Assembly (NCBI RefSeq): GCF_007997135.1
Contig: NZ_VORU01000008.1
Location: forward strand, 1-64,000
DNA: 64,000 nucleotides
DNA from: Aequorivita lipolytica
GTDB taxonomy: Bacteria > Bacteroidota > Bacteroidia > Flavobacteriales > Flavobacteriaceae
Direction: 5' to 3'
Of this stretch, positions 8,382 through 63,209 are shown piece after piece. The position numbers and the translations under genes are program-made. Every line of letters starts with the position of its first letter. Within the stretch, counting starts at the first letter, position 1. The notes below the pieces were generated by a model that worked only from the letters and a program-made list of their open reading frames with translations, did not search any database and was not told the DNA's origin.

Positions 8382-8432
8382 TCACCACGAATACACGAAT
8401 ATTATATATACAATTCGTGTATTGTGGTTAAA
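8382..8432. repeat. Dispersed inverted repeat, ACCACGAATACACGAAT family
   Basis: The arms ACCACGAATACACGAAT (8383-8399) and its near-reverse-complement ATTCGTGTATTGTGGT (8413-8428) flank an AT-rich loop. The same half-sites recur near 59260, across 61410-62140 and across 62900-63165, so this is a genome-dispersed palindromic intergenic element. Confidence 0.8.
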
Positions 8433-14196: not shown

Positions 14197-14400
14197 CCTG
14201 CAACCTGCAACCTGCAACCTGCAACCTGAAGCCTGCAACCTGAAACCTGCAACCTGCAACCTGCAACCTGCAACCTGAAACCTGCAACCTGTAACCTGCA
14301 ACCTGCAACCTGCAACCTGCAACCTGCAACCTGCAACCTGCAACCTGCAACCTGCAACCTGCAACCTGCAACCTGCAACCTGCAACCTGAAACCTGAAAC
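14197..14400. repeat. 9-bp minisatellite (CCTGCAACC), about 22 copies
   Basis: Twenty-odd copies of CAACCTGCA-type 9-bp units with occasional AAACCTG variants. The unit length is divisible by three, so long repetitive reading frames (LQVAGCR-type on the minus strand) appear in all three phases. These are almost certainly not proteins. The array ends about 75 bases before the candidate wza promoter. Confidence 0.95.
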
Positions 14401-14476
14401 CCGAAGCCAATATTTCTTCTATTTTCAATAAAACCTGCTTTCCCTAAAATAAGTTTCATTATTAAATACGTTACTT

Positions 14477-21815: not shown

Positions 21816-21867
21816 AAAAAGAAATGGAAATCGAAATCGCCAAGTAACCCATCCCGTCCTGTTCCCA

Positions 21868-22250
21868 AAGCCCATCTCGTCTTCCGTAGCTTTAGCGTAG
21901 GGAGAAATCCCACCTCGTCTTCCGTAGCTTTAGCGTAGGGAGAAACTCACAAATAAAATACGAGCGACGAGCGACGAGCGATGAGCGATGAGCGATGAGC
22001 GATGAGCGAAGAGGGATTTTCAATCAAAATATCCAATAACTCAGTAACCCAATAACCCATCCCGTCCTAAATACTGATTCCCTTCAGTCTTGGTTCTTGG
22101 TTCTCGGTTCCCTTCAATCCTGTTTCCGAATCCCGAATCCCAAATCCCAATCCTGTCACACTGAGCGCAGCCGAAGTGCCAAATCTGTCACACTGAGCGC
22201 AGCCGAAGTGCCAAACTCACAAACTCACTCGACCTGACAGCAATACAAGT
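21868..22250. repeat. Two 38-bp units, GAGCGACGAGCGATGAG tandem, two REP copies
   Basis: Two copies of the CTCGTCTTCCGTAGCTTTAG unit lie at 21868-21947, GAGCGACGAGCGATG-type units at 21961-22012, CCAATAACCCAATAACCC at 22030-22052, and two tandem TGTCACACTGAGCGCAGCC REP-like units at 22154-22178 and 22186-22210. No gene was found. Confidence 0.85.
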
Positions 22251-23190: not shown

Positions 23191-23202
23191 CTGTTTCCAA
23201 AT

Positions 23203-23468
23203 CCCACCTCGTCTTCCGTAGCTTTAGCGTAGGGAGAAATTCCACCTCGTCTTCCGTAGCTTTAGCGTAAGGAGAAATCCCACCTCGTCTTCCGTAGCTT
23301 TAGCGTAGGGAGAAATTCCACCTCGTCTTCCGTAGCTTTAGCGTAGGGAGAAATCCCACCTCGTCTTCCGTAGCTTTAGCGTAGGGAGAAATCCCACCTC
23401 GTCTTCCGTAGCTTTAGCGTAGGGAGAAATCCCACCTCGTCTTCCGTAGCTTTAGCGTAGGGAGAAAT
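23203..23468. repeat. Seven tandem copies of a 38-bp unit
   Basis: The starts of the conserved CACCTCG core fall at 23205, 23243, 23281, 23319, 23357, 23395 and 23433, an exact 38-base period. The copies differ by a base or two (AAATTCC versus AAATCCC, GTAAGG versus GTAGGG). Two further copies lie at 21868-21947. The core CTTCCGTAGCTTTAGCGTAG resembles Bacteroidota REP-type sequence, and a related element occurs at 56239-56266. There are no unique spacers, so this is not a CRISPR array. Confidence 0.93.
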
Positions 23469-23513
23469 CCCGAATTAACAAATTAAATGTCTTGACCCCC
23501 GCCCCTAAAGGGG

Positions 23514-25173: not shown

Positions 25174-25536
25174 ATGAAATCTTATAAAGATTTAGATATT
25201 TATAATTTGGCTTTTCAATTCTCCATCGAAGTACACCACGTTTCGTTGAAGATGCCAAAATTTGAACTGTATGAACAAGGAAGTCAAGTTAGAAGATCCG
25301 CAAAGAGTGTAAAGGATAATATTATTGAAGGGTATGGAAGAAGAAATTACAAACAAGACTTTATAAAATTCCTGACCTATTCCCAAGCTTCCTTATTGGA
25401 ATGCAAGGGACAGTTGGAAACAATTCAAGAATTATATGATATCCCAGAAGTGCCTGAAGTAATTACAAAATATGATGGTTTAGGCGCAAAGATTTTTACA
25501 TTTACTCAATATGTAGAAAAAAATTGGAAAACTTAA
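25174..25536 (+). CDS. Four-helix-bundle protein of the 23S-rRNA IVP/S23 family
   Basis: The 120-residue protein opens [31 protein letters not shown] and contains [21 protein letters not shown] and FLTYSQASLLECKGQLETIQEL, the signatures of the IVP/S23 family. Homologues occur in 23S rRNA intervening sequences, and a related fold (Avd) serves diversity-generating retroelements. Here it is free-standing, between wzm and wzt. The role is unknown. No reverse transcriptase or rRNA is nearby. A decayed paralogue is at 55871-56150. Confidence 0.85.
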   Translation: MKSYKDLDIYNLAFQFSIEVHHVSLKMPKFELYEQGSQVRRSAKSVKDNIIEGYGRRNYKQDFIKFLTYSQASLLECKGQLETIQELYDIPEVPEVITKYDGLGAKIFTFTQYVEKNWKT

Positions 25537-25640
25537 CAGACAACAGACAACAGACAACAGACAACAGACAACAGACAACAGACAACAGACAACAGACAAC
25601 AGACAACAGACAACAGACAACCGACAACCGACAACCGAAC
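25535..25640. repeat. 7-bp tandem array (ACAACAG) abutting the wzt start
   Basis: About fifteen 7-base units (the last three ACAACCG) run from the IVP stop codon to the base before the wzt ATG. Since 7 is not a multiple of 3, gain or loss of one unit shifts any reading frame that crosses the array. Confidence 0.95.
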
Positions 25641-48649: not shown

Positions 48650-49974
48650 TGCTCTTTCTTTTCCTAAAATATCTACAGCCCACACATTATTTTCAGTTAT
48701 ATAGGAAAGATGGAACTTCTATTTTTCCAATAATTGAAAATCTTCCGAATGAAATTGTTGAACAACTTGTACCGGAGGCCAAGTTTAAAAGTGAAAAAGC
48801 TCGGAAATACGATCTGTCTTGGCAAGCCGTCAATAAGGGTTATATTGGAAACACGGAAGTTTATACTTCATTTGAAAAACTTCCAGTGATTGACGAATAC
48901 CGTTTTCTGCGGAAATACTTTCACTCAATTTGGGTTTTTTATGTTTTGATGTTACGGTTACTTTCTTTTAAAAATCCGTTCCGTGAGTTCTCGGCTTGGA
49001 AAAAAAGTAGGGACACGGTGCGAAGTAATTATCTTAATAAGCCAATAAAACACCCTGATTGCAATAAGCAGCAGTCCTCCCTAGTTGAAGATAAACCTTT
49101 GGTGAGCGTGGTAATTCCCACCTTGAATAGATATAAATATTTAAAGGATGTACTTGCTGATTTTGAAAAGCAGACTTATAAGAACTTTGAGATATTGATA
49201 ATAGATCAGTCACAACCTTTTCAAAAAGTTTTCTGCAAAGATTTTAATCTAAAAATCCATCATATACAACAAAACGAACCAGCCTTATGGCTTGCCAGAA
49301 ATACCGCTATTGAAAAATCTGAAGGAAGTATAATCGCCCTTTCAGAGGATGATGTTCGGATAGGTCCAGACTGGATTGAAAATCATTTGCGCTGTTTGGA
49401 CTTTTTTAAAGCAGACATTTCTGCAGGAGTGTTTTACCCTGAAGGTAGTTCCATTCCAAAAGAACGCTCCTTTTTCTGTGTGGCTTCACAATTTGCTACT
49501 GGTAACGCAATGCTGTATAAAGATGTTTTTAAAAAAATAGGCTTGTTCGACAGACAGTTTGAAAAACAACGCATGGGCGATGGAGAATTTGGTCTGCGGG
49601 CATATTTGAACGGTCTAAAAAGTATTTCAAACCCGTATGCTTCTTGCATAGATGTAAAGGCAGGAACGGGAGGTTTAAGACAAATGGGCAGTTGGGATGC
49701 TTTTCGCCCCAAAAAGCTATTCGCTCCACGACCCATTCCAAGTGTACTATATCTGTATAGAAAATATTACGGTCGGAAAAGAAGCCTACTTGCCATTCTA
49801 AAAACTGTTCCCCAATCCATAATCCCTTACCGTTACAAGAAAAACAAAAAAATGATGGTCTTGGGTCTTTTTATCTCGCTATTTTTGTTTCCGTTTGTGG
49901 TTTTGCAGGTGGTTATTTCATGGCGATTGGCGACTAAGAAGTTGAGGGAGGGGGCGATGATAAAACGGTTGTAG
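48649..49974 (+). CDS. GT2 glycosyltransferase with N-terminal extension and C-terminal membrane segment
   Basis: The 441-residue protein has a unique N-terminal region (about 1-150) preceding the GT-A domain (VVIPTLNRYKYLKDVLADFEK at about 152-172, IDQSQP, ALSEDDVRIGP). About residues 398-430 form a hydrophobic helix (MVLGLFISLFLFPFVVLQVV), so it may be anchored at the inner membrane. The IDQS box links it to the 36873 gene product. The extension might form a second, unrecognised domain. Confidence 0.8.
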   Translation: MLFLFLKYLQPTHYFQLYRKDGTSIFPIIENLPNEIVEQLVPEAKFKSEKARKYDLSWQAVNKGYIGNTEVYTSFEKLPVIDEYRFLRKYFHSIWVFYVLMLRLLSFKNPFREFSAWKKSRDTVRSNYLNKPIKHPDCNKQQSSLVEDKPLVSVVIPTLNRYKYLKDVLADFEKQTYKNFEILIIDQSQPFQKVFCKDFNLKIHHIQQNEPALWLARNTAIEKSEGSIIALSEDDVRIGPDWIENHLRCLDFFKADISAGVFYPEGSSIPKERSFFCVASQFATGNAMLYKDVFKKIGLFDRQFEKQRMGDGEFGLRAYLNGLKSISNPYASCIDVKAGTGGLRQMGSWDAFRPKKLFAPRPIPSVLYLYRKYYGRKRSLLAILKTVPQSIIPYRYKKNKKMMVLGLFISLFLFPFVVLQVVISWRLATKKLREGAMIKRL

Positions 49975-50543
49975 GTTTCAGGTTGTGCCCTGAGCGGAGC
50001 CGAAGGGTTCTCGGTTCTCAGTTGTCTGTTCTCGGTTGCAGGTTACAGGTTGCAGGTTGCAGGTTTCAGGTTGTGCCCTGAGCGGAGTTGAAGGGTTCTT
50101 GGTTCTCAGTTGTCTGTTCTCGGTTGCAGGTTACAGGTTGCAGGTTGCAGGTTTCAGGTTTCAGGTTGTGCCCTGAGCGGAGTTGAAGGGTTCTTGGTTC
50201 TCAGTTGTCTGTTCTCAGTTGCAGGTTACAGGTTGCAGGTTTCAGGTTGTGCCCTGAGCGGAGCCGAAGGATTCTCGGTTGTCTGTTTCAAGTTGGTAGT
50301 TTACAGTCTTTAGACGGTATTCTGTAGTAATTAGATATTAATCTGACACGTACTCGATTTTTTATTTTTGACACTGGACAACCACTAAGAACACAAAGGA
50401 GTCACAAAGCACACAGAGAAAGCTTCGTGGTAGTTTTCAATTAAGTGTGTCATCGGTTAAAACACACCGATTTCCACAAATACTGAATCCAACAACTAAC
50501 AACTATCAACCAACAACTATCAACCAACAACCATCAACCAATA
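49975..50543. repeat. Roughly four copies of a CCTGAGCGGAGCCGAAGGG/GTTGCAGGTT composite unit
   Basis: No gene was found in 569 bases. A composite unit of about 85-95 bases starts near 49980, 50071, 50164 and 50247 and consists of TGCCCTGAGCGGAGCCGAAG (REP), TTCTCGGTTCTCAGTTGTCTG and GTTGCAGGTTACAGGTTGCA. It is followed by a CACTAAGAACACAAAGGAG element (50390-50419) and a 13-bp CAACCAACAACTAT tandem (50487-50541) that ends two bases before the ATG of the next gene. Confidence 0.9.
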
Positions 50544-51659
50544 ATGACCAAAACCCTCATATTAACCTCCGAATTCCCACCCCAACCCGGAGGCATAGGC
50601 AATCATGCTTATAACTTGGCAAAGGGATTGCAGGCTAATGGTTTTGAGGTTCAGTTGGTGTGCGATACCCGTTCAGAGATGGGGGAAGAGGAAAGGGAGT
50701 TTGATAGGGATCTTACTTTTGAAGTAGTGCGTATCCCGAGGAAGCATATTATTTTCTTTAGTTATATAAAGCGTATCACTACCGCTTTTTCTTTGGTTTC
50801 TAAAAACGAAATGGTGATCTGTACGGGTAAATTTTCTCTTTGGTTGGGAGCTTTTTTGTCTTTTTTCTTTCGAAGAAAATTTATTGCAATAATCCATGGG
50901 AGCGAAGTTAGGCTTCCCAATATAATTTTACGGAAGCTAACTGATTATGCTTTAAAACGCTTCGATAGCGTTATAGCTGTAAGTAATTATACCAAGACCA
51001 TGGTGCAGCATCTTAAGCTGAAAAATATAGAAGTGGTGCCCAATGGTTTCGATATGAAGCTTACTCCGGATTCTCGAGATAATAACGAACCCGTGCCGGT
51101 TTTAATAACCGTAGGCAACATGACCCAAAGGAAGGGTCAGCATAATGTAATCAATGCCTTGCCGCTGCTTTTGAAGAAATATCCAGACTTGAAGTATCAT
51201 ATTGTTGGGATACCTACTGAAAAAGAGAAGTTGGAAAAATTAAGTTTAGATTTAGGGATTGAAAATGCTGTAGTGTTTTACGGAAAGGTTTCCGAAGAAG
51301 AGAAGATTGAACTCCTGCAACAAACTGATGTTTTTGTGATGTTGAGTGAAACTACCAAAACTGGGGATGTTGAAGGTTTTGGGATTGCTATTTTGGAAGC
51401 CAATGCTCTCGGAATTCCGGCAATTGGAGCTCTGGACTGCGGGATAGAAGATGCAATTAAGGATGGAACTTCTGGGAAATTAATAGGCAGCAAAGACCCA
51501 GAACAGTTGGCTGAAGCTCTGGAAGATATCTTGAAGAATTATGATACCTATGCCCAAGAAGCAAAAACATGGTCGCAGGATTTTACTTGGGAGAAAGTGA
51601 TTAAGTTATATTTGGATGTTTTGAGGGGGGAAGTAATTGGGGAGGGTGATGAAAGTTAA
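50544..51659 (+). CDS. GT4 glycosyltransferase
   Basis: The 371-residue GT-B enzyme has LILTSEFPPQPGGIGNHAYNLAKGL, ITVGNMTQRKGQHNVI and the EX7E region GDVEGFGIAILEANALGIPAI. The ATG at 50544 follows directly on an AC-rich tandem repeat. Its stop codon TAA (51657-51659) is the first base triplet of the left arm of the inverted repeat around the nuclease gene. Confidence 0.88.
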   Translation: MTKTLILTSEFPPQPGGIGNHAYNLAKGLQANGFEVQLVCDTRSEMGEEEREFDRDLTFEVVRIPRKHIIFFSYIKRITTAFSLVSKNEMVICTGKFSLWLGAFLSFFFRRKFIAIIHGSEVRLPNIILRKLTDYALKRFDSVIAVSNYTKTMVQHLKLKNIEVVPNGFDMKLTPDSRDNNEPVPVLITVGNMTQRKGQHNVINALPLLLKKYPDLKYHIVGIPTEKEKLEKLSLDLGIENAVVFYGKVSEEEKIELLQQTDVFVMLSETTKTGDVEGFGIAILEANALGIPAIGALDCGIEDAIKDGTSGKLIGSKDPEQLAEALEDILKNYDTYAQEAKTWSQDFTWEKVIKLYLDVLRGEVIGEGDES

Positions 51660-51685
51660 CCACAGAGGCACAGAGGACACAGAGA
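51657..51685. repeat. Left arm of a 29-bp inverted repeat around the GxxExxY gene
   Basis: TAACCACAGAGGCACAGAGG followed by ACACAGAGA is the reverse complement of 52081-52109 except for two bases. It begins with the stop codon of the upstream GT4. Confidence 0.9.
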
Positions 51686-51698
51686 AAATATTACTTTT

Positions 51699-52079
51699 AT
51701 GACAGAAAATGAATTATCTTCAAAGATTATAGGAGCGTGTATTGAGGTCCACAAGCAGTTAGGTCCTGGGCTTTTGGAAAGTACCTATGAAGTCTGTTTG
51801 GCTCATGAATTAAGAACATTGGGTTTAGAATTTAAACAGCAAGTGCCTTTACCAGTAATTTATAAGGGGATAAAACTGAATGCAGGTTATAGAATTGATA
51901 TGATAGTAGAAGAGAGGATAATAATCGAAATAAAATCTATTGAGGTTTTAGCTCCCATTCATACCGCACAGATATTAACTTATTTAAAACTTAAAGAACT
52001 TAAGCTTGGACTTTTAATAAACTTCAATAGTGTAAAAGTTGTTGACGGAATAAAAAGAATAATAAATGGCTACACCTAA
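51699..52079 (+). CDS. GxxExxY protein, PD-(D/E)XK nuclease-like
   Basis: The 126-residue protein shows the name-giving GLLESTYE motif (about 24-31), the preceding CIEVHKQLGPG, and the nuclease core: a putative Asp in YRIDMIVEE (about 66-74) and the EIK motif in IIIEIKSIEVLAP (about 75-87). The PF13366/PDDEXK_3 family has a PD-(D/E)XK fold, but its function in these stand-alone copies is not established. It is the only gene between two arms of a 29-base inverted repeat and interrupts a GT4/GT4 gene pair. It appears intact. Confidence 0.9.
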   Translation: MTENELSSKIIGACIEVHKQLGPGLLESTYEVCLAHELRTLGLEFKQQVPLPVIYKGIKLNAGYRIDMIVEERIIIEIKSIEVLAPIHTAQILTYLKLKELKLGLLINFNSVKVVDGIKRIINGYT

Positions 52080-52080
52080 A

Positions 52081-52109
52081 CCTCTGTGCCCTCTGTGCCT
52101 CTGTGGTTA
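52081..52109. repeat. Right arm of the 29-bp inverted repeat around the GxxExxY gene
   Basis: CCTCTGTGCCCTCTGTGCCT continuing to GGTTA is complementary to the left arm. It begins one base after the GxxExxY stop and runs 18 bases up to the likely TTG start of the next GT4, overlapping an alternative GTG start. Confidence 0.9.
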
Positions 52110-52126
52110 AAATTAATTCAGCATAT

Positions 52127-53245
52127 TTGAAACTTGCAATAATCTCCCATACTGAACACTACAAGCAATCCGATGGAACAATCGTTGGTTGGGGCCCTAC
52201 CATTAGCGAGATCAATCATTTGGCAAAGGATTTTGAGGAGATATATCACGTAGCTTTCTTACATTCTGGTACACCTCCCCTAAGTTCATTGCCCTATACA
52301 TCTTCCAAAATTAAATTTGTTCCTTTAAAACCTGTTGGCGGAAAAGGAGTGGGGCAGAAACTAGAAATTATTCTGAACATTCCCACGATATTGAATACTG
52401 TTCAAAAAACAATAAATAAAGTTGATGTCTTCCAACTGCGGACCCCCACTGGTATTGGGGTGTTTTTGATTCCTTATCTTACACTTTTTACTACTAAGAA
52501 AGGCTGGTTCAAATACGCGGGAAATTGGAACCAAGACAATCCGCCCTTAGGTTATGCCTTACAACGCTGGATGTTGAAAAACCAAAAACGTAAAGTTACT
52601 ATCAACGGGAGTTGGCCGAAACAACCTAAACACTGCCTAACTTTTGAAAATCCATGCCTTACGATAGCCGAACGGGAAGAAGGCTTGCGGATTACCCAAG
52701 AGAAATCATTTGAGCCGCCTTATACGTTTTGCTTTGTAGGCAGATTGGAAGATGCTAAAGGGGTACAGCGCATTGTTGAAGCTTTTGGTGCTTTAGCAAG
52801 TTTAAAGAAAGTGCAAACCATTCATTTTATTGGAAATGGAGAAAAGATGAATCACTATCAAAAGCAGTGTGACGATTTGGGATTGCCTGCAGTGTTTCAC
52901 GGTTTTTTGGAAAGGCAGGAGGTTTTTGAAATTTATAAAACATCGCATTTCATTTTGTTGCCAAGTACGGCTTCGGAAGGATTTCCAAAAGTAATTGCTG
53001 AGGGTATGAACTTTGGCTGTGTGCCGATTGTTTCCGATGTGTCGAGCATTGGACAATATATAAATCCGAATAATGGGTTTATAGTGAATCCCTGCACCGC
53101 AGAAGAATTAAAGCAGCTTTTGGATCAATTGATTTTAATGGATATAGCTAGTTTAAAAATTAAGGCGAATGAGTCATACCAAGTGGCTAAAGATTTTACC
53201 TTTGAAAAATATCGATATAGAATTAAATCAGAGATATTAGAATAA
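52127..53245 (+). CDS. GT4 glycosyltransferase
   Basis: The 372-residue enzyme starts at TTG 52127, which gives MKLAIISHTEHYKQSDG, the natural start; a GTG at 52103 lies within the inverted repeat and would add eight residues. It has the WGPTISEINHLAKDF acceptor region, FVGRLEDAKGVQRIVEAF, IGNGEKMNHY and the EX7E region STASEGFPKVIAEGMNFG. Its 5' end was probably affected by arrival of the cassette. Confidence 0.85.
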   Translation: MKLAIISHTEHYKQSDGTIVGWGPTISEINHLAKDFEEIYHVAFLHSGTPPLSSLPYTSSKIKFVPLKPVGGKGVGQKLEIILNIPTILNTVQKTINKVDVFQLRTPTGIGVFLIPYLTLFTTKKGWFKYAGNWNQDNPPLGYALQRWMLKNQKRKVTINGSWPKQPKHCLTFENPCLTIAEREEGLRITQEKSFEPPYTFCFVGRLEDAKGVQRIVEAFGALASLKKVQTIHFIGNGEKMNHYQKQCDDLGLPAVFHGFLERQEVFEIYKTSHFILLPSTASEGFPKVIAEGMNFGCVPIVSDVSSIGQYINPNNGFIVNPCTAEELKQLLDQLILMDIASLKIKANESYQVAKDFTFEKYRYRIKSEILE

Positions 53246-55613: not shown

Positions 55614-55870
55614 AATTTCAGTAAATTTGGGGAAATCTGTTGTCAGTTCTGAGTTATCTGTTCTCAGTTCTCGGTTCTGGGTTGTCAGTTCGCGGTTTTG
55701 AGTTATCTGTTCTCGGTTCTCAGTTCTCGGTTCTCAGTTCTCGGTTCTGGGTTGTCAGTTGTGGGTTCTCAGTTGTCGGTTTTCAGTTCTCAGTTGTCGG
55801 TTCTCAGTTCTCAGTTTTGAGTATTATTAACAATGAATTATTTTAACCAATAACCGTCAACTGCAAGATT
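55614..55870. repeat. GTTCTCAGTTCTCGG low-complexity tract before the dead IVP copy
   Basis: GTTCTCGGTTCTCAG / GTTGTCAGTT tandem units run 55635-55820. The G/T-rich strand is plus, the same orientation as the border at 25096-25130 next to the intact IVP gene. Confidence 0.9.
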
Positions 55871-57673: not shown

Positions 57674-58077
57674 TTAGTATTGAGTAGTTAGTATTGAGTA
57701 GTTAGTTTTAGAAAGGTGAATTTGTGAATTTGTGAGTTTTTGAGTTTTTGAGTTTTTCTCTTTCAGCTTAAATTTAAAAATAATCTTATACTATATTTTC
57801 TGCACTATTATGAAGATTAACTAATTCAAATTTCTTTGTTCGGTGAAGATGGCTAACTTGGTGCTATGTAGATTGTCGGTTAGCGGTTTCTGGCTTCTAG
57901 CATCTGGCTTCTAGCTTCTAGCATCTAGCGTCTAGCTTCTAGCTTCTGGCTTCTAGCTTCTAGCTTCTAGCATCTAGCTTCTAGCTTCTAGCTTCTAGCT
58001 TCTGGTCCAGCCCTTCGACTGCGCTCAGGGTGACAGTAGCATCCAAAGAATCCAAAGATTCAGCAGTACCAAGTCTC
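57674..58077. repeat. Gap of CTTCTAGCATCTAGC tandem and CTTCGACTGCGCTCAGGG REP
   Basis: No gene was found in 404 bases. AGTTAGTATTGAGTAG units lie at 57674-57710, GTGAGTTTTTGAG at 57726-57758, a long array of TTCTAGCTTCTAGC/ATCTAGC units at 57893-58005, and the REP CCCTTCGACTGCGCTCAGGG with TGACA at 58011-58035. The convergent end of the glycosylphosphotransferase and the Lnb-like gene face each other across it. Confidence 0.9.
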
Positions 58078-59259
58078 TTACCGTCTGCCAATAAAATACA
58101 CTACATAAACATAGCGCACTGCCAACGCGATTAAAAGCGGCAACAAGGCAATGGCGAAAACCTGTACTCCAGTGATCCAATGGATGGTTAACAGGACTAA
58201 TAGAAGTAGAAGAAACGAAATATACCTTTTAAGCTTTGGGGATACGTTTACTTTGGAGATTGCAAAAATCACTACTATGGAAATAGGGAAGGCCCAAAGT
58301 AGGTTGTAGTTGTATGCCGTAGCCGTATGGTCTGTGGCAAACCAAAGCAATAATAGAAATATGCCAATAAGCCCAGTAAAGACAAAAATTGAAGTGTCTA
58401 AATAACGGCTTCGGGTATTATTTTTATAGTCGCGATAGGTTACAAAAACAATCAACAAGCCCAATAAACCCAGTATAAAAAACGGACTCAATAAGAAATT
58501 GTTCTCAGTGGGAGTAGGGGTATTTTCAAAAAGAACGGTTGTTTGTTTCACCAAATTTTCAGAAGTGCCATTTCTTTTTATAACGGCATTTGCGGCACCT
58601 TCATACACATAGTCGGGCAGAAATTGGTATTCAATAGGTTTTGCCTTTCTGTCGATTACTGCACCGAGGGCGATATCAATACCCATACTTCCCCAAGTAT
58701 TCCACTCTAGGTTTTGCTGGATAAGTTGGCGAAACGTACGTTCTTCTTTTATATGATCTTCCTTAAACTCCAGCTTGTTGCCCAATACTTCTTGAACTAC
58801 ATCGCGAATTTTGGTAGCGCAATTGTCGAAAAAGAAATCGTATTTGTATTTTTTATTCTCTGGCCGTGCATTGTTCCAAAGAAAATCTGAGACAGCTTGT
58901 TTTTCAGTGTAGTTGAGGTTCAAGGTTTGTTCTTTAACCCAGCGATTTTGGGCTACATAGCTTTCAAAAAACGGTTGATAATAACTTACACCTAACTGAT
59001 AAAGTAGCTTTCCTTGCGCAAATTTGGTGTAGAAATTTGGTGTATTAAAATCATAGACTCCATAATTGAAAACCACATCAACCCCATTCAAACTATCTTG
59101 AATTCGAAACGCGCTGTGCCCAAACTTGTCGTAAAGCTCCGCTCCTGGACCAATAGTAATAATGCTTATTTCAGAAGTTTCGGATAACGGGATGAACTGT
59201 GCTTTTGCAGAAACACTTAGTAGTAATAGAAGAAGTAGAAATATATAATTTTTTACCAC
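58078..59259 (-). CDS. DUF4105 / Lnb-type N-terminal periplasmic domain membrane protein
   Basis: The 393-residue protein has a signal peptide (about 1-21), a periplasmic DUF4105 domain (about 25-240) with the putative catalytic pair GHSAFRI (His) and FFFDNCATKIRD (Cys), and five or six C-terminal membrane helices (about 255-390). The Bacteroides lipoprotein N-acyltransferase Lnb belongs to this family, so a role in lipoprotein N-acylation is plausible but inferred. Dispersed ACCACGAATACACGAAT repeat half-sites flank the start (59258-59275). Confidence 0.75.
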   Translation of the reverse strand: MVKNYIFLLLLLLLSVSAKAQFIPLSETSEISIITIGPGAELYDKFGHSAFRIQDSLNGVDVVFNYGVYDFNTPNFYTKFAQGKLLYQLGVSYYQPFFESYVAQNRWVKEQTLNLNYTEKQAVSDFLWNNARPENKKYKYDFFFDNCATKIRDVVQEVLGNKLEFKEDHIKEERTFRQLIQQNLEWNTWGSMGIDIALGAVIDRKAKPIEYQFLPDYVYEGAANAVIKRNGTSENLVKQTTVLFENTPTPTENNFLLSPFFILGLLGLLIVFVTYRDYKNNTRSRYLDTSIFVFTGLIGIFLLLLWFATDHTATAYNYNLLWAFPISIVVIFAISKVNVSPKLKRYISFLLLLLVLLTIHWITGVQVFAIALLPLLIALAVRYVYVVYFIGRR

Positions 59260-59275
59260 GAATACACGAATATTA

Positions 59276-60660: not shown

Positions 60661-61431
60661 ATGCTAAAACAAATACCAAACATAATTACCTCCCTGAATA
60701 TTCTTTGTGGCTGTGTTGCCATACTTTTTGCGACTTCGGGAGATTTAATAAACGCTTCCTTTTTTGTTTTTCTAGGGATTTTCTTCGACTTTTTTGACGG
60801 GCTTGCGGCTCGTTTGTTGAAAGCGCAGAGTGAAGTGGGCCTTCAGCTGGATTCGCTGGCAGATGTTATTACCAGCGGCGTAGCGCCTGGTATAATAATG
60901 TATCAAATGCTGAACTTGTCTTATTTCTACGAAATGCATACGCTGACCGAAACATTTTCTTTGGATGGTTGGAACGTTAGCTTTAAAAATTATTTGCCAC
61001 TTATAGGTTTATTGATTGTGATAGCAGCGGCTTATCGTTTGGCAAAATTCAATGTAGATACGCGGCAAACTTCAGGTTTTATCGGTTTGCCAACACCTGC
61101 TAATGCGCTTCTAATATTGAGTTTACCGCTAATATTACAATTTCAATATTCAGAATTAATAGAAACTATAATTTTGAATAGATGGTTTTTAATAGGAATG
61201 ACGTTTTTAAGCTGCATCCTGATGAATGCCGAAATCCCACTTTTCGCCCTAAAATTCAAAACCTGGGATTTTAAGAGCAACGCCGTTCGCTATGTATTTT
61301 TAATACTTTGCGTTGTGCTTTTGGTGCTGATTAAGTTTTTAGCGATACCGTTTATAATTCTGCTTTATATATTGCTTTCAGTTTTTTGGAAAGTGCCGAA
61401 GGTAAAAAGTTTACCACGAATGCACGAATAA
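60661..61431 (+). CDS. pssA: CDP-diacylglycerol-serine O-phosphatidyltransferase
   Basis: The 256-residue membrane enzyme starts at ATG 60661 (MLKQIPNIITSLNILCGCVA), which is preferred to a TTG ten codons upstream. It has the CDP-alcohol phosphotransferase motif D-G-x2-A-R-x8-G-x3-D-x3-D in FFDGLAARLLKAQSEVGLQL and the following DSLADV (about 54-78), and about seven membrane segments. It makes phosphatidylserine, the precursor of phosphatidylethanolamine. It is divergent to the PorV-like gene. The C-terminal region is extended and hydrophobic. Confidence 0.9.
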   Translation: MLKQIPNIITSLNILCGCVAILFATSGDLINASFFVFLGIFFDFFDGLAARLLKAQSEVGLQLDSLADVITSGVAPGIIMYQMLNLSYFYEMHTLTETFSLDGWNVSFKNYLPLIGLLIVIAAAYRLAKFNVDTRQTSGFIGLPTPANALLILSLPLILQFQYSELIETIILNRWFLIGMTFLSCILMNAEIPLFALKFKTWDFKSNAVRYVFLILCVVLLVLIKFLAIPFIILLYILLSVFWKVPKVKSLPRMHE

Positions 61432-62147
61432 TTTTTTATGAGTATTTGTGGATCTGTGACGAAAACTATGTTCTAAAATTGTAGTTTCTTCTAATGAAGA
61501 TTAAAAGTTTACCACGAATAAACGAATATTTTTTTACGTACTCGGCTTTAAAAATATTTAGAAGAAATTTCAAAAACCCCAAACATAATTATTCGTGAAT
61601 TCGTGGCAAAAAAACACGCTGCTGTCGATTATTCCCCCTTTGGGGGCCAGGGGGACTAGCTCTAACTTCTTCTGCTGAAGTAAAAAAGTTTACTACGAAT
61701 ACACGAATATTTTTCTATTTACTCGGCTTTAAAAATATTTAGAAGAAATTTCAAAAACCCCAAACATAATTATTTGTGAATTCGTGGCAAAAAAACACGC
61801 TGCTGCTTCCCCCTTTGGGGGCTAGGGGGACTAGCTCTAACTTCTTCCTAAGGGAAAAAATCTACCACGAATACACGAACAATTTTTTATATACTCGGTT
61901 TTGTTTGAAGGTATAACGAAGAAATTTTCACCAACCCAAACATAATAATTCGTGAATTCGTGGCAAAAAAACACGCTGCTGTCGATTATTCCCCCTTTGG
62001 GGGCTAGGGGGACTAGCTCTAACTTCTTCTGATGAAGTAGAAAATTTTACCACGAATGCACGAATATTTTTTTATTTACTCGGCTTAGAATTTCGAAGAA
62101 ATTCACAGACCAAAAACATAGTTATTCGTGTATCGTGGTCAAAAAAT
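61432..62147. repeat. About four tandem 170-190-bp units with paired ACCACGAAT palindromes
   Basis: Units begin near 61509, 61690, 61862 and 62048. Most carry ACCACGAATACACGAAT, an AT-rich loop ending AATTCGTGAATTCGTGGC, a CACGCTGCTG box and a CCCCCTTTGGGGGCTAGGGG palindrome with GACTAGCTCTAACTTCTTC. The last unit is partial. No gene was found. The repeat sits between the convergent ends of pssA and lptB. Confidence 0.93.
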
Positions 62148-62888: not shown

Positions 62889-63209
62889 TTAGTAGAATTA
62901 AAATTTACCACGAATGTACTTCGGTCTCTGTGGTAGTATGGGTTATGTTTACCACGAATACACGAATGTATTTTGGAGTGTATTATTTACCACGAATACA
63001 CGAATATTTATTTTTTCTAATTTATACGCTGTTAGTCGCTAAGCTCCTTTTCTTTCTCAGGCGCTCGTCGCTCGTCGCTCTTTCCTCGTAGCTCTTCGCT
63101 TCTTTCCTCTTCGCTCTTTTTCAGTTAAACGAATATATCAATAATTCGTGAATTCGTGGTAATAAATGATTTCAGCGTTAGGGTTAATTAATATTATTTA
63201 TATTGAAAT
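62889..63209. repeat. Three ACCACGAAT half-palindromes and GCTCGTCGCTCGTCGCTC units
   Basis: No gene was found in 321 bases. ACCACGAATACACGAAT half-sites lie at 62907-62920, 62951-62970 and 62990-63006, their reverse complement at 63141-63163, and GCTCGTCGCTCGTCGCTC-type units at 63062-63115, which are the reverse complement of the GAGCGACGAGCGATG units seen at 21961. Confidence 0.85.

Follow-up and report, generated by a model that had tools for sequence, protein, structure and literature searches.

A GxxExxY nuclease gene between inverted repeat arms in Aequorivita, and the resemblance of its layout to RAYT/REP systems

Introduction

What is a gene for a small GxxExxY protein, held between two inverted repeat arms, doing in the gap between two glycosyltransferase genes of Aequorivita, and does the unit that it forms with its arms move? 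GxxExxY proteins are found in many phyla, and to our knowledge they have no established function. The locus lies in a stretch of 64,000 nucleotides, called the window here, which comprises positions 1-64000 of a 159-kb contig; the Aequorivita genome is 3.3 Mb in size and its nearest named relatives are Aequorivita. Here we describe the cassette, compare it with its relatives inside and outside the genus, and weigh the explanations that could account for it.

Results and Discussion

A discrete cassette with a single gene

The features of the cassette are as follows.

51656..51684, + strand: left arm, with three CACAGAG units, TTA ACCACAGAG G CACAGAG GA CACAGAG
51699..52079, + strand: GxxExxY protein gene, 126 aa, PD-(D/E)XK; D67, E77 and K79 invariant in 40 aligned sequences
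52082..52110, - strand: right arm, an inverted copy of the left arm with 1 mismatch in 29
51646..52150, no strand assigned: block of high identity to genome G004 (taken as A. antarctica), approximate, with edges placed by eye

The first-pass annotation of this DNA had described inverted arms at 51657-51685 and 52081-52109 with 2 mismatches in 29, and this geometry is correct; a one-base shift gives the best frame (51656-51684 and 52082-52110, 1 mismatch in 29), from which the pairing can be extended to 36 nt at 89%. The window holds 10 exact 16-nt inverted seeds lying 30-500 nt apart (overlapping seeds counted, and all repeats of the window included), and among 20 dinucleotide shuffles 19 had 0 and one had 1. 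Each arm is itself a short tandem array of about 2.8 copies of CACAGAGGA, a property absent from the earlier description.

As had been proposed, the nuclease gene is the sole cargo, being the only listed open reading frame (ORF) of at least 80 aa between the arms, and the unit is a discrete cassette that lacks a transposase, PF13366 and TIGR04256 being the only models that match at E 0.001. Both neighbours match glycosyltransferase models, PF00534 best, in agreement with the place given for the cassette between two glycosyltransferase genes. The positions given for the arms relative to these genes also hold: the upstream gene has its stop codon (TAA, 51657-51659) within the left arm, and the right arm ends 16 nt before the TTG start of the downstream gene (52127), which is backed by homologues. 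An in-frame GTG at 52103, inside the right arm, is a possible alternative start for the downstream gene; more generally, the arm sequence (GTGGT) offers a possible in-frame GTG start to a neighbouring gene at window positions 52103 and 59259.

The GxxExxY protein

The family assignment made from the letters alone was borne out by full-length matches above cut-off to TIGR04256 (GxxExxY; 154.9 bits, cut-off 35) and PF13366 (PDDEXK_3; 150.1 bits, cut-off 22), and the window gene is thus a full-length member of that family. The residues G22, G24, E27, Y30, Y55, D67, E77, K79, N108 and G117 are invariant in 40 aligned GxxExxY sequences, and we take D67, E77 and K79 to be the PD-(D/E)XK centre; the PD-(D/E)XK fold of the protein is a prediction, assigned by profile. 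The closest protein copy fetched, 98% identical, comes from A. antarctica (L046). The genome has a second GxxExxY gene outside the window (C45:73229-73570), flanked by other arms (ACCACGAATACACGAAT, type C). GxxExxY frames are often broken, with a stop before residue 105 in 8 of 80 loci (L070, L087, L095, L097, L103, L121, L123 and L125), as expected of a decaying selfish element.

A role in defence or in phages was considered and set aside, the matches being weak: among the PADLOC defence models the best match to the window protein was only Cas4b, at E 0.015, too weak for the protein to be classed as Cas4 by profile, and the best match in the PHROGs profile search had E 0.018. Relatives of the protein were found by tblastn in 0 of 50,697 phage records and in 5 of 72,556 plasmid records, and a pattern scan found 1 viral contig. 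Two of the five plasmid copies were inspected (Bacteroides and Bernardetia), and by eye these and the single viral-contig copy have arms of this kind. Among solved structures no relative was found by sequence, other matches being at E 0.08 or worse. A known RNA element was also rejected, since no Rfam family reached its gathering score in the window.

Inverted arms often accompany GxxExxY genes in many phyla

We fetched 80 loci by similarity to the window protein and scored the 75 that had full 200-nt flanks, counting a locus as positive when the inverted-repeat score across the gene was at least 25. This score was reached at 49 of 75 GxxExxY loci. The controls reached it in 5 of 163 cases for distant ORFs, in 9 of 129 for near ones and in 2 of 375 for shuffled pairs, and with proteins clustered at 65% arms were present in 15 of 24 clusters versus 1 of 54 controls (Fisher p = 4e-9). 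Further PF13366 copies from 20 genomes outside the genus had arms in 36 of 47 cases, a set obtained from 70 loci by dropping 20 repeats of earlier loci and 3 with short flanks, and containing only 3 control ORFs. Scores below 25 were found at about a third of the loci (26/75), in 9 of 24 clusters and in 11 of the 47 further copies. Matching of the two arms within a locus exceeds matching across loci (p = 6e-14); because cross pairs, with left and right flanks taken from different loci, also scored at least 25 in 116 of 445 cases, the left-right match within a locus partly reflects a shared unit type. These comparisons show that GxxExxY genes are associated with inverted unit arms in many phyla.

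The arms have a common layout, with about three 7-nt CRCNRAK-like units 8-10 nt apart. At least two CRCNRAK units run toward the gene in 42 of 50 arm pairs of one set and in 45 of 55 of the other, the opposite orientation being seen in 5 and 6 pairs, and the unit spacing is 8-10 nt in 223 of 241 cases; since the motif was derived from the data counted here and the two sets share members, the figures are a description rather than a test. Of 20 more distant GxxExxY genomes outside the genus, 14 carry 13 or more generic motifs and reach 3 times the control; the other 6 were not above three times control. In 51 non-genus relatives the generic unit pattern was near zero with or without a GxxExxY gene, giving no association, and a single generic pattern was therefore discarded as a marker of the system outside the genus; we think that the units there differ too much from one another. 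At one locus (L068) the inverted repeat that flanks the GxxExxY gene is about 200 nt long and made of CGCAGATTT-like units.

Arm type follows nuclease subfamily within the genus

Within the genus, the cassettes split into subfamilies, each with its own units. Protein similarity and arm similarity are correlated (Mantel r = 0.53), a value reached by 0 of 5000 permutations and likewise when permutation was confined within genomes. The set comprised 46 cassettes from 22 genomes, drawn from 74 matches, the rest of which were short, weak-armed or repeats. Orthologous-site cassettes were kept in it, so that the pairing is partly due to common descent of a single unit; with that reservation, gene and repeat appear to coevolve.

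The number of dispersed repeats was compared with the presence of the cognate gene, broken copies included. For type C the repeat number is higher in genomes with a type C gene than in those without one (medians 20.5 versus 4, p = 0.003; p = 0.009 with the two own arms subtracted), and presence of a type A gene makes no difference to it (p = 0.75 to 0.83). The arms of the window cassette are of type A. Exact matches to the type A pattern are present in 20 of the 28 genomes of the genus and in 2 of the 51 other genomes, and the reversed pattern has none. Type A repeat number is more weakly tied to its gene, with p = 0.06 if G008 is counted as type A, 0.02 if it is moved, and 0.10 if it is moved and the two own arms are subtracted; over the longer piece, the G008 protein is nearer to type B than to type A (0.59 versus 0.49). 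The type D pattern was found in all 4 genomes that have the gene and in 1 of the 24 that lack it, and 12 of its 13 matches lie at the gene itself, which shows pairing and no dispersal; type D was accordingly dropped as support for a repeat number that follows the gene. Among themselves, the four type D proteins share 95-98% identity. All 8 inverted type A arm pairs lying 362-431 nt apart, among the matches listed, hold a GxxExxY gene or remnant, and none of these 8 holds other cargo. One relative (G001, a single contig) has no GxxExxY match and carries 23 type A and 37 type C copies, an exception to the pattern.

Dispersed copies of the arms in the same genome

The first-pass annotation had proposed a genome search for further copies of the arms and had named arms confined to this locus as a refuting outcome. 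That search found the type A arm motif at 8 other places, so that the arms are not confined to one locus; they are members of a dispersed repeat family that is found with the nuclease family. Judged by eye, 6 of the 8 places are gene-less palindromes of two arms with their ACCAC ends facing each other, one (L005) has type A arms in cassette orientation without a gene, and one (L004) is a single arm. Several of the places lie between a stop codon and the next start, and the 4 of 8 places that were folded form long hairpins (z -4.6 to -7.8).

The type C repeat has 51 copies in this genome (G000). With own arms excluded, 9 of 49 copies are no more than 15 kb away from the type C gene versus 0.4 expected, and by clusters the figures are 3 of 34 versus 0.3 expected (p = 0.004), for one genome, chosen as the cassette's own. 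Copies and related arrays in the window are the following.

8384..8400, + strand: solo type C repeat (ACCACGAATACACGAAT), of the type that forms the arms of the second GxxExxY gene
50381..50418, + strand: related units in a degenerate array, ACCACTAAG-AACACAAAG-GAGTCACAAAG-CACACAGAG, located upstream of the first glycosyltransferase
59255..59271, + strand: type C copy at the GTG start of the minus-strand ORF 58078-59259
61413..62139, no strand assigned: type C copies, most of them in a tandem array of gene-less units with inverted arms
62951..63159, no strand assigned: three more type C arms, two in + and one in - orientation

The type C tandem array has a 181-nt period and 3.6 copies (61503-62146). 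The window also contains many 7-nt tandem arrays whose unit differs by site, for example at 14197-14401 (CCTGCAA, 29 copies), 25535-25635 (AACAGAC, 14 copies), 55639-55816 (GTTCTCA, 25 copies) and 57888-58003 (TTCTAGC, 17 copies). A 38-nt tandem repeat has an almost identical unit at two sites (23199-23471, 7.2 copies; 21867-21945, 2.1 copies), and upstream of the first glycosyltransferase, at 49967-50248, there is an 88-95-nt tandem repeat of about 3 copies built of 7-nt units.

Alleles with and without the cassette

Against G004, the cassette is 96.6% identical over 51657-52125, compared with a median of 81.3% for 500 overlapping 468-nt windows in 31.6 kb of alignment; this is the highest value among them, the best value away from the cassette being 91.9%. 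At fourfold sites, 28 of 32 are identical in the gene; for three genes nearby the figures are 52 of 94, 33 of 92 and 47 of 122. The block of high identity passes the arms, by about 10 nt on the left and some tens of nt on the right. A second group (G005, G007 and G019) has cassettes at the same site that are 98-100% identical in glycosyltransferase genes that are 72-88% identical. These alignments show that the cassette has recently passed from species to species, arriving at the same site.

At the glycosyltransferase junction, which was extracted from 17 of the 28 genomes searched, 7 have the gene, 3 arms only and 7 neither, as read by eye. The empty-site check suggested by the first-pass annotation thus gave 10 of 16 extracted relatives without the gene at this junction, and with the arm copies elsewhere in the genome neither of the two outcomes named there as refuting was observed. 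Among the 7 gene-bearing junctions one gene is frameshifted and one junction has tandem units, one of them internally deleted; at L165 (G005:C12:44247-48207) the GxxExxY units are in tandem, one with a large internal deletion and the other whole.

Gene-free alleles were found at three sites: this junction, CCA-Sua5 and asnS-rpoN. At CCA-Sua5 a GxxExxY gene or remnant is present in 14 of 27 loci, with a clean junction of 26-28 nt in 5. The site is occupied by two cassette lineages that share 65-73% identity, in genomes with 73-91% identity in the flanks. Recent transfer was not seen there, 0 of 55 pairs having a gene that exceeded both flanks by more than 5 points. In Flavobacterium, 9 of 30 asnS-rpoN loci, taken from 121 genomes, have the gene and 21 of 30 have other inverted unit arrays, judged by eye. 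The Flavobacterium cassette is about as diverged as its flanks and therefore looks inherited. Its gene-free alleles differ in their whole intergenic content, and because they carry other inverted arrays, a general process may also make such arrays. The units of these gene-free alleles are GTTCTAAG, GTTTCAA, GTTATGA and GGTTAATC (L236-L249, L251-L255, L257 and L258), and their flanking genes are 83-95% identical to those of L089.

A target-site duplication was seen in none of the three allele panels, all of which are without a near-identical empty allele; cut-and-paste with target-site duplication was set aside as a candidate on this basis, the panels being too diverged to exclude it. The mobility proposed in the first-pass annotation thus stands in part. 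The cassette as a unit, the gene-free alleles and the movement of the unit are upheld, whereas simple insertion into an empty site is not, with no target-site duplication visible and with gene-free alleles that differ in their intergenic DNA.

Explanations for the arms and for the exchange

Our preferred reading, to which we give a probability of about 0.57, is that the cassette belongs to a widespread family of small chromosomal elements, each a GxxExxY gene with inverted arms, that would work like RAYT/REP with an unrelated nuclease. A different possibility is that a host process such as slippage, template switching or selection of hairpins between genes makes and keeps the arrays, the GxxExxY gene being a passenger that tolerates residence in the loop. 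We regard this as unlikely, and several observations keep it alive: the many repeats of G001 in a genome without the gene, the lack of association for the generic pattern, the other inverted arrays of the gene-free Flavobacterium loci, and the 26 of 75 loci without a strong repeat. It would also fit the abundance of 6-8-nt tandem arrays in the window, the good folding of gene-less palindromes and the weak tie between type A repeat number and the gene. A tolerated passenger does not, however, account for arms at 49 of 75 GxxExxY loci against 5 of 163 control genes, for an arm type that tracks nuclease subfamily even when permuted within genomes, for a type C number that follows the type C gene only, or for the 8 of 8 type A arm pairs that enclose a GxxExxY gene or remnant among the matches listed.

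The exchange between species might be explained by a free-standing homing endonuclease that cuts the cassette-free allele at one site, the cassette being copied in by repair and the arms serving as incidental recombination handles. PD-(D/E)XK homing endonucleases exist, I-Ssp6803I being an example, and the likeness extends to a small nuclease of this class and to a same-site cassette whose identity far exceeds that of its flanks. The presence and absence of the cassette at the same site gives an allele pattern compatible with homing, as are the two separate groups with near-identical cassettes at one site and the two diverged lineages that replace each other at CCA-Sua5. We nevertheless consider homing of this simple kind improbable: GxxExxY cassettes have no intron and occupy several unrelated sites, no target sequence common to the cassette-free alleles was seen, and the dispersed cognate repeats of matching type would be left unexplained. 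Still less probable, in our estimation, is that the block of about 97% identity arose when a short tract recombined by ordinary homology following horizontal transfer, with the nuclease serving an unrelated role in repair or defence. Polysaccharide loci often recombine, and the block does extend past both arms; yet the cassette scores highest of all 500 windows with edges close to both arms, the second group repeats the pattern, and no defence model improves on the weak Cas4b match. A conventional transposon with terminal inverted repeats, a transposase supplied from elsewhere and target-site duplications would give inverted ends and gene-less short derivatives, but it has next to no chance of being correct given that there is no transposase between the arms, that the allele comparisons show no visible target-site duplication, and that one gene family lies between the arms in many phyla.

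Comparison with RAYT/REP and other repeats

In RAYT/REP systems, a small transposase gene related to IS200/IS605 is flanked by inverted copies of a dispersed palindromic repeat, with REP-rayt-REP layouts and BIMEs described (PMC2817692). The GxxExxY cassettes share with these one small nuclease-type gene between inverted copies of a genome-dispersed palindromic repeat, the apparent coevolution of gene and repeat, and, for type C, a repeat number that follows the cognate gene and copies that cluster near it. The arms in the window are half-palindromes, and complete palindromes flank the gene on both sides in G018:C6 and G002. The likeness extends to BIME-like tandem arrays: in G002, L264 (G002:C1:2348400-2349600) has a 242-nt unit in 4.5 copies with one palindrome per unit, each of which by eye also holds an apparent captured end of an AraC-like gene. 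The repeats are dispersed for types A and C and for the generic units, but not for type D.

The differences are equally clear. The protein is of the PD-(D/E)XK kind in place of an HUH/Y1 tyrosine transposase, for which no model matched at E 0.001 (only PF13366 and TIGR04256 did); the GxxExxY arms are arrays of about three short units whose long pairing comes from two separate arms; and GxxExxY cassettes occur in many phyla, one relative (G001) keeping repeats without the gene. The layout is that of RAYT/REP and the enzyme is different.

GTAG/CGTC-tagged REPs are likewise short intergenic palindromes found in several phyla (PMC3733652), as are the GxxExxY repeats. GxxExxY is not mentioned in the main text of that paper, and no GTAG or CGTC tag was recognised by eye in the arms that were read. 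The passages that name GxxExxY in the searched literature say nothing on arms or repeats. In that literature, which mostly excludes subscription journals, neither six 15-mers of the repeat nor the name PDDEXK_3 occurs, and for shorter repeat words (9-16-mers) the top matches listed were unrelated.

Conclusions

We propose that the element is a GxxExxY gene bounded by inverted arms of about three CRCNRAK-like units. The nuclease would recognise its own unit in the arms, perhaps as a palindrome hairpin or cruciform, and cut at the units, perhaps in the extruded hairpin, after which repair or strand transfer would copy the element onto another copy or onto an allele lacking the element. Spread would then proceed by conversion- or homing-like replacement rather than by classical cut-and-paste, and the gene-less palindromes would be non-autonomous derivatives of the element. 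Action of the nuclease on the arms is the step that we infer. Only tentatively, and with some doubt, do we extend this proposal to the idea that GxxExxY proteins are a new class of repeat-spreading enzyme, convergent with RAYT, with units specific to each subfamily, gene-less palindromes copied through the genome and a cassette of about 450 nt moved between species.

The cassette and its repeats may represent an overlooked kind of mobile DNA. If this wider proposal is true, it would account for a large part of the short inverted unit arrays of Bacteroidota, Planctomycetota, Acidobacteriota and other phyla. Because nuclease and unit are paired, the idea lends itself to direct tests in vitro. 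If the nuclease does act on the arms, the family would gain a function and a class of short dispersed bacterial repeats an origin, and a second enzyme fold, besides HUH, would be able to run a REP-like system.
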